In this document: one piece after another, positions 17,315 through 21,519 of the stretch
Layout of the letters: the number at the start of each line of letters is the position of its first letter
How positions within the stretch are numbered: position 1 is the stretch's first letter
Assembly: GCF_024138145.1 (NCBI RefSeq)
Contig: NZ_CP099997.1
Span: 992,001 to 1,056,000, forward strand
Origin: Natronosalvus halobius
GTDB taxonomy: Archaea > Halobacteriota > Halobacteria > Halobacteriales > Natrialbaceae
DNA: 64,000 bases
Direction of reading: 5' to 3'
Program-made: the position numbers and the translations under genes
Notes under the pieces: generated by a model
Told to the model about the DNA's origin: nothing
What the model saw: only the letters and a program-made list of their open reading frames with translations
Database searches by the model: none

Positions 17315-18439
17315 TCAGCCCTCGTAGCCTGCGTACCCCATGAGGTCGCTGAAGATGTCGGTGTCCATGACGTCGCGGTAGACGATCGCACTGACCATAC
17401 CACCGGGGTAGAAGTTCCTGTTCATCGCGTGATCGACTTTGTGGCAGTGCGCCAGGTAAATTCCCGGGTCGGCGTTCGCTTCGAACTCGATCGTATGGCG
17501 CTCCGCGGGCGCGACGTTGGTGATGTCGCGCTCGTACTGCGCCGCTTCGGGTATCTGGCCGCCGTCTTTCTCGACCAGACGGAAACGGTGGTTGTGCGTG
17601 TGCAACGGGTGAGACATGTACCCCGCGTTGACGAAGTGGAGCCTGACCGTGTCGCCCGAATCGACGATCATCGGCGAACCGTCTTCGGGGTGGAGCGTCC
17701 GGGGCAGGCTCTTTCCATTGATCGTGAACACGTCGGGATTACGCTGGCGAGGGCTGTACTCGATGTCCTCGCCGTTCATCTGTCTAGGAACGCGTGAATC
17801 CCAGTCCTTGACCGTCATGAAGTACTCCTTGTCGGCTGGTTCGTACCCCTTCGGATCGACGCGGAAGATTCCGTACATCCCCATGTCGATGTGCCTGTTC
17901 GTCTGATAGTGACAGTGGTAGAGGTGTGTCCCCGGGACGTTCGCCGGGATCGTGTAGGTGTGTTTCTCGCCCGGGTCGACGCGAATACCCGTCGTCGTCG
18001 GCACGCCGTCGTTCTCCCAGGTCTTGTGTGAGCCGTGAAAGTGAAGCGTGTGCGGGTGACTCCCGTCCGTGTTGTCGAGCGTCACTTCCATGTCGTTGCC
18101 CTCGGTCGTTCGCAGGATCGGCCCCGGAACGCTGGGTTCCCTGTCGTCGGCCTGGAACGCCCAGACCTGTGGGAACTCGATTGGACCGCCCATCGACTCG
18201 AGCGGGTGCACAGGGTGTCGGGAGGTGACGCTCCGAAGCGTGACTTCTCCGCCCTGGTCGTCGACCTGGACGACCGACGGTGGGCTCGTCGTCGGGAGGT
18301 CTGACTGGGTGGCTGCTTTCGAATTCAGGTTCATCGGTGACTGACAGCCAGCGAGGACGGCAGCGCCAGTTCCGCCGGTTGCAGCCAGATATTGTCGCCG
18401 CGAGATGCCAGTTCCAGGGGCTCCGATGTGATCGGCCAT
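17315..18439 (-). CDS. Exported two-domain multicopper oxidase
   Basis: The 374-residue protein (from ATG 18439, MADHIGAPGTG) has a Tat-like start, GISRRQYLAATGGTGAAVLAGC, ending in a possible lipobox cysteine. Two cupredoxin domains follow. Copper-binding clusters are HPHTLHFHG, HLYHCHYQTNRHIDMGM, HPLHTHNH and HLAHCHKVDH, so a type-1 site and a trinuclear-type His cluster are likely. It belongs with two-domain laccases and nitrite-reductase-like proteins; CuNiR-type CAPEG sequence is absent, which favours an oxidase. It sits behind the sugar dehydrogenase in opposite order on the same strand and could accept its electrons, which is inference. Confidence 0.9.
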   Translation of the reverse strand: MADHIGAPGTGISRRQYLAATGGTGAAVLAGCQSPMNLNSKAATQSDLPTTSPPSVVQVDDQGGEVTLRSVTSRHPVHPLESMGGPIEFPQVWAFQADDREPSVPGPILRTTEGNDMEVTLDNTDGSHPHTLHFHGSHKTWENDGVPTTTGIRVDPGEKHTYTIPANVPGTHLYHCHYQTNRHIDMGMYGIFRVDPKGYEPADKEYFMTVKDWDSRVPRQMNGEDIEYSPRQRNPDVFTINGKSLPRTLHPEDGSPMIVDSGDTVRLHFVNAGYMSHPLHTHNHRFRLVEKDGGQIPEAAQYERDITNVAPAERHTIEFEANADPGIYLAHCHKVDHAMNRNFYPGGMVSAIVYRDVMDTDIFSDLMGYAGYEG

Positions 18440-18590
18440 GTACACCTGAACGTTTGAACTCCCCCAGTATAGCGGGTCACACCAGTTCTTATCCACTGGG
18501 AATGCGAGCGAAGATGTTCGTCCAGATGACTAAAGCAAGAGGACGGCCAATTCGAGGTCTGTCCGGTCGGTCGGCATTTCGTGAGGTGTC

Positions 18591-18614
18591 CCACCCCACC
18601 GTGTCGAGTGTTTT
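18591..18614 (-). repeat. ORB-like repeat A
   Basis: Read on the minus strand the site is ACACTCGACACGGTGGGGTG, flanked by an A-run on its 5' side. It matches the consensus exactly. Confidence 0.85.
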
Positions 18615-18657
18615 TTGGAGTGGGCCGGCCGTCGACTGAGGGGCGGTAGGGTGAGAG

Positions 18658-18678
18658 ACCCCACTTTGTCGAGTGTTT
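18658..18678 (-). repeat. ORB-like repeat B
   Basis: Read on the minus strand the site is ACACTCGACAAAGTGGGGT, with two changes in the centre compared with the consensus. It has the same orientation as repeat A, 67 bp away. Confidence 0.8.
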
Positions 18679-19144
18679 CGGGTTAAGGGGTGGTGATGTC
18701 TGCGAGGCGAGCAAAGTCGAGGCGTCGTCGATGAAGGAGATCGGGTGGGTGAACTCGAGGCATCTTTGGGAGGGGTGGTCTGAAAAAGGACGGCGCCTCG
18801 ACGGTGCGTCTCCTGACAGGGGAGGTGAGAGTAACGTCACCGACGAAGAAAATCACGATGACATCGTAATATCGAAAAGATAGTCATCGTCGAACGCAAA
18901 ATCCCGCTAACGGAACGCAACGAGCGACTCATTCGGATGGCTCATCTGAACCGTCAATGCAGATGAGAGGTCTGAATCGAGCGTACGTCACCGGAAGAAG
19001 TGTCTCCCGGTACGCATACGGTGGAGAACTCGAGGGGTGAACTCGGCTATCGAGACAGCCTATCTGGCGTCTCGATACGATCGCTCGCGACGCGACATGG
19101 GTTGACCCGGAAAGGCGATCAGTTCGAGCTCCTGGGAGCGGTCC

Positions 19145-19167
19145 GAAACACTCGACACGGTGGGGTG
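19145..19167 (+). repeat. ORB-like repeat C
   Basis: The site ACACTCGACACGGTGGGGTG is a perfect match in forward orientation, 125 bp before the orc1 start. Confidence 0.85.
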
Positions 19168-19212
19168 TCCACCTCATCGAGGGGTGGTAGGGCCGACCGG
19201 AGACGATCCGTC

Positions 19213-19239
19213 GAACACTCGACGCACTCGACACGGTGG
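19213..19239 (+). repeat. ORB-like repeat D, abutting the orc1 TATA element
   Basis: The sequence CACTCGACACGGTGG at 19225-19239 matches the left 15 bp of the repeat, then runs into TTTTATATA instead of GGGT. A partial copy (AACACTCGAC) precedes it at 19214. Confidence 0.75.
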
Positions 19240-19248
19240 TTTTATATA
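19239..19248 (+). promoter_or_regulatory. TATA element of the orc1/cdc6 gene
   Basis: GTTTTATATA lies about 25-30 nt before ATG 19272, the right spacing for a leaderless haloarchaeal transcript. It is fused to the end of ORB-like repeat D, so binding of the initiator there would block the promoter. Confidence 0.75.
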
Positions 19249-19271
19249 TCTTGCAGCGAGCAGTCCAACTA

Positions 19272-20498
19272 ATGCCGCTGTTCGATCGGGACACGTCAAT
19301 TTTCTCTGACGAGGACGTGCTACGGGAGGACTATCAACCGGAGTCGATCCAGGAACGGGACGAAGAGATCGACACGTACATGGCTTCTCTCCAGCCCGTC
19401 ATCAACGGAGCACAGCCACGAAACCTGTTTCTCTACGGCAAGGCCGGCGTCGGGAAGACAGCCGTCACCCGCTATCTCCTCTCCCATCTCGAGCGTGACG
19501 TCGACGCCTACGACGACGTCGCGTTGACCGTCGTCTGGCTCAACTGTAACAACCTCTCTTCTTCCTACCAGGTCGCCGCGAATCTCGTCAACGAACTGCG
19601 ACCGCCAAGCCAACAGATCAGCACGACCGGCTACCCTCGCCAGACCGTCTTCGATATGCTCTACACCGAACTCGAGAGCATCGGCGGAACCGTCCTGATT
19701 GTCCTGGACGAGATCGATCACATCGGCGACGACGATGGCATCCTCTACGAACTCCCACGCGCTCGTGCGAACGGCTACCTCTCGTCGGTCAAACCCGGTA
19801 TCATCGGCATCAGTAACGACCTGAGCTTTCACGACAGTCTCTCCCCGAAGGTCAAGGACACCCTCTGTGAGGAGGAAGTTCACTTTCCGCCGTACACCGC
19901 CGGCGAGTTGCGCTCGATTCTCGAGCAACGAGCGGAGAACGCCCTGTACGAAACCGCCTACGAAACGAACGTGCTCTCGCTGTGTGCAGCACTCGCCGCC
20001 CAGGACACCGGTAGTGCGAGGCAGGCACTGGATTTGCTCTACAAGGCAGGGGACATCACGCGAGCTGCCGACGAGACGACCATTAGAGAGTCTCACGTGC
20101 GCGACGCCCAGCAGGCGCTCGAGCGTGGACAGATCCGCCAGGGAATGATGGAGTTGACTCGACACGGTCACCTGGCGCTGGCGGCGGTGCTCAGCATCGC
20201 GATCGGTGACGAGACGCCTGCCCGCGTTCGCGAAATCTACCCTGAGTACTCGGCGATCGCCGAACGGTTCGGGACGAAGCCCCTCGTTCGGCGACGGATG
20301 CACGATCACCTCTCCGATCTGGCCATGCAAGGTATTTTGAAGCGGTACGCCCGTAATCACGGTCGATCGGGCGGCCAGTACTACGAGTACGATCTCGACG
20401 TGACCCTCGAGTTGGCCCTCGACGTCGTCGACGAACTCGAGGACGTCGACATCTCGCTCGAGGCGGTTCGAGGCGCAAAACTGCGGGGATTACGATGA
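19272..20498 (+). CDS. Orc1/Cdc6 family replication initiator
   Basis: The 408-residue AAA+ ATPase has Walker A in [19 protein letters not shown] near residues 54-72, Walker B in [13 protein letters not shown] near 145-157, a sensor 1 region in [14 protein letters not shown] near 178-191, sensor 2 in [15 protein letters not shown] near 247-261 and a C-terminal winged helix from about 300. It binds origin boxes and loads the MCM helicase. ATG 19272 is chosen over an upstream GTG at 19236 because the latter overlaps the TATA element. Flanking ORB-like repeats support the role. It is one of the several Orc paralogs usual in haloarchaea; which one is not decided here. Confidence 0.95.
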
Positions 20499-20586
20499 CG
20501 GCGAGGAGTACGGTGATCGAGAACCGCCTGTACGAAAGCTACTCGATTGCGATCTAATCGTCGTCGACTTCCATTGATTCCAGTAG

Positions 20587-20634
20587 TCGAGTAGCCCCTC
20601 CTTTCGGCTTTCGAGTAGCCCCTCCTTTCGGCCC
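20587..20634. repeat. Two copies of a 24-bp tandem repeat downstream of orc1
   Basis: TCGAGTAGCCCCTCCTTTCG plus four bases occurs at 20587 and 20611. It lies between the end of orc1 and ORB-like repeat E and is unlike the ORB sequence. Confidence 0.85.
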
Positions 20635-20650
20635 TCCACTAGCGTTGGCA

Positions 20651-20678
20651 GAACACTCGACACAGTGGGGTGGGGGTG
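20651..20678 (+). repeat. ORB-like repeat E
   Basis: ACACTCGACACAGTGGGGTG, with a single change from the consensus and an extended G-rich tail, in forward orientation. Confidence 0.85.
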
Positions 20679-20762
20679 TAACCCGCAGGACTCTGTCCTT
20701 CAGCCGATGGATATTCACCCTCGTCCAGCTGGATGTGATCTCAGACGGAAGCTCGCGCAACT

Positions 20763-20790
20763 AAACACTTGACACGGTGGGGTAGGTCAC
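20763..20790 (+). repeat. ORB-like repeat F
   Basis: ACACTTGACACGGTGGGGTA, one change from the consensus, forward orientation, 112 bp after repeat E. Confidence 0.83.
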
Positions 20791-20851
20791 CCCAGATATC
20801 CGAATATTCTGGACGACCTCTCCTATCCTGACCGTTTCTCGTCGTCGCAGA

Positions 20852-20879
20852 GAAACACTCGACACAGTGGGGTGGGTGA
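20852..20879 (+). repeat. ORB-like repeat G
   Basis: ACACTCGACACAGTGGGGTG, forward orientation, 90 bp after repeat F and 160 bp before the start of rpl11. Confidence 0.85.
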
Positions 20880-21042
20880 GTCACGGATAGTCGTTCGAAT
20901 AGTCACGTTCGAGCCCACCCGACACGGTCTCATCGAGGAATCCTCGTCTCGTTTCACTCGCTACGACAGACTCTCACACATTTTTCGGGCCGGACTGGAC
21001 CGAATGGCAACCCTTAAAACTCGAGCGAGGATTCATTCGGGT

Positions 21043-21519
21043 ATGGCTGGAACCATCGAAGCGCTCGTACCGGGTGGCCAGGCCAATCCTGGCCCACCGC
21101 TCGGTCCCGAGCTCGGACCGACGCCCGTCGACGTACAGGCGGTCGTCAACGACATCAACGAACAGACCGCGGCCTTCGACGGCACCGAAGTACCGGTTAC
21201 CATCGAGTACGAGGACGACGGCAGCTACTCGATCGACGTCGGTGTCCCACCGACGGCCGCTCTCGTCAAGGACGAGGCCGGATTCGACACGGGAAGCGGC
21301 GAACCCCAGAAGGACTTCGTCGCCGACCTCTCGATCGATCAGGTCAAAACGATCGCCGAGCAGAAGAAACCCGACCTGCTCGCCTACGACACGAAGAACG
21401 CGGCCAAAGAGGTCGTCGGCACCTGCGCCTCGATGGGCGTCACAATCGAAGGCGTCGATGCTCGCGAGTTCAAAGCGAAAGTCGACGACGGCGAGTACGA
21501 CGACGCTCTCGTCGAGTGA
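21043..21519 (+). CDS. rpl11: 50S ribosomal protein L11
   Basis: The 158-residue protein starts MAGTIEALVPGGQANPGPPL, the conserved N-terminal domain with the proline-rich switch, and has the rRNA-binding C-terminal domain with CASMGVTIEGVDA near residues 127-139. It forms the GTPase-associated centre with L10 and L12. The start ATG 21043 is fixed by the family and by a TTAAAA element at 21014-21019. Unlike the usual tight L11-L1-L10-L12 order, a leftward membrane protein gene separates it from rpl1, so it is transcribed alone. Confidence 0.97.
   Translation: MAGTIEALVPGGQANPGPPLGPELGPTPVDVQAVVNDINEQTAAFDGTEVPVTIEYEDDGSYSIDVGVPPTAALVKDEAGFDTGSGEPQKDFVADLSIDQVKTIAEQKKPDLLAYDTKNAAKEVVGTCASMGVTIEGVDAREFKAKVDDGEYDDALVE

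Follow-up and report, generated by a model that had tools for sequence, protein, structure and literature searches.

The window analysed here is a 64-kb stretch of Natronosalvus halobius DNA, positions 992001-1056000 of contig C1 in genome G000. The genome totals 3.85 Mb and comprises contigs C1 (3.51 Mb), C2 (294 kb) and a third of 47.6 kb. At positions 19272-20498 of the window, on the plus strand, is an orc1/cdc6-family initiator gene. It starts with ATG and encodes 408 amino acids, with Walker A (GKAGVGKT) and Walker B (IVLDEID) motifs and lid and winged-helix domains. Pfam recognises Cdc6_lid and Cdc6_C in the product, and the match to NCBIfam TIGR02928 is far over the cut-off. The closest solved structures are 2qby_A (Cdc6 homolog 1, E 6e-62) and 2v1u_A (Cdc6 homolog, E 1e-57). 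The gene had been labelled Orc1/Cdc6 in the original prediction. Membership of the family holds, but this is not the canonical Orc1. That protein is encoded elsewhere (C1:2812415-2814013) and is 37% identical to the window Orc over 275 amino acids. Five more Orc-like genes are present in the genome. On the 294-kb contig, the orc genes at C2:202022 and C2:58335 have different repeats of their own, about AAACACTCRTGAAANNTGGGGGG and ATACAGCGGCAANGNGGGGT, respectively. A multicopper oxidase gene (17315-18496, minus strand; Pfam) forms the left border of the locus and is found at that place in just the two closest relatives. To the right, the ribosomal protein L11 gene (rpl11; 21043-21519, plus strand; Pfam) is followed by those for L1, L10 and L12 and marks the position at which the cassette is conserved.

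Both strands of the window were scanned for sites within three mismatches of the 19-bp box ACACTCGACACGGTGGGGT. Seven were found, all inside 18593-20873 and, as predicted, nowhere else in the window. Dinucleotide shuffles of the window gave a mean of 0.01 matches and a maximum of 1. Hence, the box cluster is far beyond chance. The seven "copies" originally described are seven matches, but exact copies number just two (boxes 1 and 3); the other five carry one to three mismatches. Their orientation, two reversed then five forward, was described correctly. Boxes 1 (18593-18611, no mismatches) and 2 (18658-18676, two mismatches) are on the minus strand, and both are kept in all eight orthologous loci described below. 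Boxes 3 (19148-19166, no mismatches) and 4 (19224-19242, three mismatches) are on the plus strand, at -124 and -48 from the orc ATG. Boxes 5 (20653-20671), 6 (20765-20783) and 7 (20855-20873), each with one mismatch, are also on the plus strand, downstream of orc. The complete gene lies between boxes 4 and 5, so the boxes do bracket it. A shorter box remnant, ACCCGACACGGT, is present at 20917-20928. Separately, a 24-bp unit, TCGAGTAGCCCCTCCTTTCGGCTT, occurs twice in tandem at 20587-20634, directly after the orc stop codon.

The box is not common in the genome. At up to three mismatches, the 3.85 Mb contain just two sites outside the locus, C1:865796 (one mismatch) and C1:1100252 (three). The first of these (C1:865796-865814) sits between two genes: a glutamine amidotransferase gene, probably trpG, precedes it, and a ribonucleotide reductase gene follows 352 bp on. 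The spacing is the same in two relatives, G112 and G114; other relatives have single distal boxes elsewhere. A parallel with DnaA and nrd genes was considered for this box. We retain it as no more than a lead, the box being present in just three close species.

Boxes 1 and 2 (reversed) and box 3 (forward) flank positions 18677-19147, and each ends GTGGGGT. The G-string of box 1 points leftward, away from the A+T-richer stretch, and box 3 is the right arm of the inverted pair. A candidate unwinding stretch, assigned by its place between the inverted clusters, spans 18828-18977 (46.7% GC over 150 bp). The lowest-GC 60 bp (36.7%) are at 18843-18902. The lowest-GC 100 bp, at 18846-18945, are 45% GC compared to a window mean of 62%, a value matched by 2.8% of window positions. 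Divergent boxes around an A+T-richer stretch, with boxes on both sides of the gene, had been predicted. The layout is as described, but the A+T enrichment is modest and box 4 is a promoter element, as set out below.

The existence of multiple orc-linked origins, with G-strings and with ORBs specific to their family, is established (PMC3528665). The window locus has repeated G-string ORBs, at least two of them inverted, in the intergenic DNA flanking an intact orc1/cdc6 gene. A modestly A+T-richer stretch lies between the inverted clusters, and the locus is on the 3.5-Mb main replicon. These features support the reading of the locus as a haloarchaeal origin. Judged by its sequence, it is very probably a second chromosomal replication origin carrying its own initiator gene. 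Briefly, Orc made from 19272-20498 would bind the 19-bp boxes either side of 18677-19147. The inverted clusters, with boxes 1 and 2 reversed, box 3 forward and G-strings outward, would frame the A+T-richer stretch. The DNA would open there, MCM helicase would be loaded and the origin could fire.

The locus belongs to a kind of orc-linked origin known from Haloarcula and Haloferax, as far as sequence can place it; the kind itself is not new. By layout, it resembles Haloarcula hispanica oriC2-cdc6E/oriC2D (Wu et al. 2014, PMC3936714), where a second origin of the chromosome adjoins its own cdc6. Both have G-string boxes on either side of the gene and a downstream cluster, which in H. hispanica restrains firing. 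Haloferax mediterranei oriC2 and oriC3, and the dormant oriC4-cdc6H (PMC4595724), are likewise extra chromosomal Orc-linked origins with inverted ORBs. The Haloferax relatives that we found differ in having Orcs 55-59% identical to that of the window and other box types. Inverted boxes, outward G-strings and, in modest form, an A+T-richer stretch are shared with archaeal oriC1-orc1, where oriC1 normally sits beside an Orc gene. Conversely, the Orc (37% identity, as above) and the box are different.

An Orc at least 90% identical (90-100%) is encoded in eight Natrialbaceae genomes, and the box set and layout recur in all of them. Each orthologous locus has two or three reversed boxes upstream of orc and two or three forward boxes downstream. 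Each also has a plus-strand box at -98 to -124 from the ATG and another at exactly -48. The boxes are kept while most of the intergenic DNA has diverged. The orc-rpl11 neighbourhood is common to six of the eight (G000, G112, G114, G117, G100 and G119), with L11 identity of 88-99%. In G111 and G113, Orc and boxes are together beside a different gene set, away from the L11 operon. Hence, the cassette behaves as a unit. The Natronosalvus genome G115 (91% complete) is without this Orc and has no box at up to two mismatches. In G119, the reversed boxes are around 1.45-1.6 kb upstream, and G+C-rich DNA with a long ORF (L072:8000-9196) lies between the arms. Hence, the unwinding layout, A+T-rich element included, is not preserved in G119, and the usual arrangement is disrupted in its genus.

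Dormancy is known for some haloarchaeal origins that have proper boxes (PMC4595724, PMC3528665). The locus might itself be dormant or in decay, having been acquired long ago, initiator included, from a plasmid or from another haloarchaeon; its boxes would still bind Orc while chromosome replication normally began at oriC1. We consider this possible, though unlikely. Dormant Orc-linked origins are documented in both Haloferax and Haloarcula, the layout is disrupted in G119 and the same Orc and box type are scattered over several haloarchaeal families. Against these points, Orc is 90-100% identical in eight species and the boxes have been retained beside diverged flanks. A remnant of an integrated plasmid or provirus, with its replication module still recognisable, is highly improbable. 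Orc-box cassettes do move between replicons, and a 48% identical relative of the window Orc is encoded on the 294-kb contig C2. However, the cassette is next to the ribosomal L11-L1-L10-L12 genes, an arrangement that six of the eight genomes share. Inspection by eye of the ORFs at 14-26 kb identified no recognisable integrase, and the sole tRNA gene of the window is around 19 kb away.

The original prediction held that the box may define the specificity of this Orc. We compared boxes and Orcs across haloarchaea. Where the Orc is 65-74% identical, the box is the same; these loci are in Haloarcula amylovorans, Har. pellucida, Natronomonas, Halovenus, Halorubrum and one unclassified strain. Loci with Orcs at 53-60% identity have other box types: ACAGCGGACANNGTGGTGT, TTCACTTGCAACGGTGGTG or AACGTTTGAATGGGTGGTG. 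The box of another Orc family is ACAGCGGACATGGTGGTGT. Placed on a tree of 87 Orcs, the four box labels require three changes, the smallest number possible, compared to a mean of 35 when shuffled. Box type A makes up one side of a branch (support 95). A possible long-branch join was flagged between types C and D; type A is unaffected. Orc and box are thus conserved together and differ together, and this co-variation supports the idea that the box defines the specificity of the Orc. A literature search with the box core found no paper. The Orc-box pair, kept from Natrialbaceae to Haloarcula and Halorubrum, offers clean material for testing origin specificity.

Box 4 has no G-string. It reads GCACTCGACACGGTGG then TTT, with GGTTT in place of GGGGT, making it a truncated ORB. 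It also abuts the putative orc TATA box, TTTTATATAT (19240-19249, plus strand), which is kept in the alignment and lies around 28 nt before the ATG. This position fits a leaderless haloarchaeal promoter. Having lost its G-string beside a TATA box, box 4 is a promoter element. Within the upstream alignment, no non-coding stretch is better conserved than the promoter element that ends CGACACGGTGGTTTTAT. An extra left half-site, ACACTCGAC (19215-19223, plus strand), sits 9 bp ahead of the next half-site and starts an array: gaacactcg acgcactcg acacggtgg TTTTATATAT. The same organisation recurs in other orc promoters, where left half-sites of the gene's own box family follow one another at 9-bp intervals and lead into GGTGG-TTTTAT. 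For this comparison the 9-nt left half was used, since 16-mers were blurred by the right half common to boxes. The own-family half-site is the best or tied match in 84 of 87 promoter loci. Among 43 non-redundant promoters, 35 have their strongest period at a lag of 9; for control DNA taken from further upstream the figure is 2 of 43, with around 4 expected. The 9-bp period is not a coding signal: 52 of the 87 loci have an in-frame stop within 75 bp before the ATG. The paralogue at C2:202022 also has a 9-bp phased promoter (lag-9 identity 0.64). No 9-bp array was found at the promoters of the orc at C2:58335 or of canonical orc1, though a single oriC1-type box is present near -34 in the latter.

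Box 4 lies in a promoter array that co-varies with the box of each family. This suggests autoregulation, with box 4 and the phased half-sites as a predicted Orc operator over the orc promoter. Box 4 and the half-site 9 bp before it would cover DNA just upstream of the TATA box. After the origin boxes had been occupied, Orc bound at box 4 would block transcription factors and reduce orc expression. The missing G-string would make box 4 a weaker site. We found no description of promoter-array self-control by archaeal initiators in the open-access literature searched. The array provides a direct, testable idea for how archaeal initiators could set their own level.

The promoter evidence also bears on a further alternative: that the boxes are mainly a regulatory array, through which Orc controls itself and perhaps rpl11 and ribonucleotide reductase, with no replication start at the locus. 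The co-varying array embedded in the promoter would suit this explanation. So too would the position of the downstream boxes upstream of rpl11, and the lone box 352 bp before the reductase gene in G000, G112 and G114. However, promoter control needs no inverted upstream clusters around an A+T-richer stretch. Furthermore, rpl11 is missing as a neighbour in G111 and G113, and G111, G117, G119 and G100 have no reductase link. We regard a purely regulatory role as very unlikely.

Directly downstream of the initiator gene, three forward boxes lie within around 380 bp. Boxes 5-7 share one orientation, as in the Cdc6-titrating oriC2D of H. hispanica. The two clusters differ in size, oriC2D comprising 11 ORBs over 722 bp. 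Origins of H. hispanica require the cdc6 gene located with them, and oriC2 is restrained by the ORB-rich region downstream (PMC3936714). By analogy, we propose that boxes 5-7 are probably a regulatory, Orc-titrating cluster, which would take up surplus Orc in the way proposed, from experiments, for oriC2D (PMC3936714). If so, the locus would work like E. coli dnaA autoregulation and datA titration (PMC3936714), with boxes in the promoter of the initiator and a separate titrating cluster; the initiators are unrelated and the comparison is of workings only. We have considerable confidence in the account as a whole: an orc/cdc6-linked Natronosalvus origin, separate from oriC1, where Orc would bind, unwind the DNA, repress its own gene and be titrated. 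Boxes, gene, layout, conservation and co-variation are computed results; binding, unwinding, firing, self-repression and titration are predicted from them.

The locus lacks the oriC1-type ORB pair (TCCA...GAAAC..AGGGG) and Orc1; both are elsewhere in the genome. We defined the oriC1 core as an inverted TCCA...GAAAC pair around 300 bp apart. Such a core was found in 78 of 125 family genomes and 0 times in the control; in G000 it is at C1:2607184-2607515. If every main contig is taken to be circular, the distance between locus and oriC1 as a fraction of the circle is 0.454 in G000, 0.441 in G112, 0.440 in G114, 0.419 in G111, 0.496 in G117, 0.475 in G119 and 0.487 in G100. The locus is therefore roughly opposite oriC1 on seven chromosomes (0.42-0.50). 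These genomes are related and not independent evidence, so the placement is suggestive and not a test. Its retention on seven chromosomes nonetheless argues against a dormant origin. At first, orc1 itself seemed to lie opposite the locus; because orc1 is displaced, the oriC1 core was taken as the reference instead.

In Natronosalvus, 206 kb separate the oriC1 core from orc1 in G000, 236 kb in G112, 194 kb in G114, 148 kb in G111 and 1345 kb in G117. In G115, they are on different contigs. In G100, G119 and all other family genomes listing both on one contig, the separation is around 0.4-1.2 kb. These distances suggest that the main Natronosalvus origin, oriC1, has lost contact with its own orc1 gene. 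Experiments in H. hispanica showed that plasmids can replicate even when the origin and its cdc6 are not in cis (PMC3936714). Hence, by analogy, the separated oriC1 may still work. The separation allows a natural test of whether an archaeal origin depends on having its initiator gene adjacent. A broader proposal, which could go either way, is that haloarchaeal Orcs other than that of oriC1 share a self-control element: left half-sites of their own box, phased at 9 bp and running into the TATA box. Such cassettes would be self-limiting. Natronosalvus, with a cassette opposite an oriC1 parted from orc1, would then have a two-origin chromosome where an adjacent initiator is known just at the cassette.

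GC skew was calculated from sampled 20-kb stretches covering around one third of C1 in G000 and was not distinguishable from noise (permutation P 0.19). In 40 sampled stretches of G117 the permutation P was 0.82. A cumulative maximum near 1.06 Mb in G000 was suggestive at first and was discarded because of these values. Separately, positions 3208001-3228000 of C1 are 46% GC compared to around 64% for the chromosome, and are possibly an integrated element.
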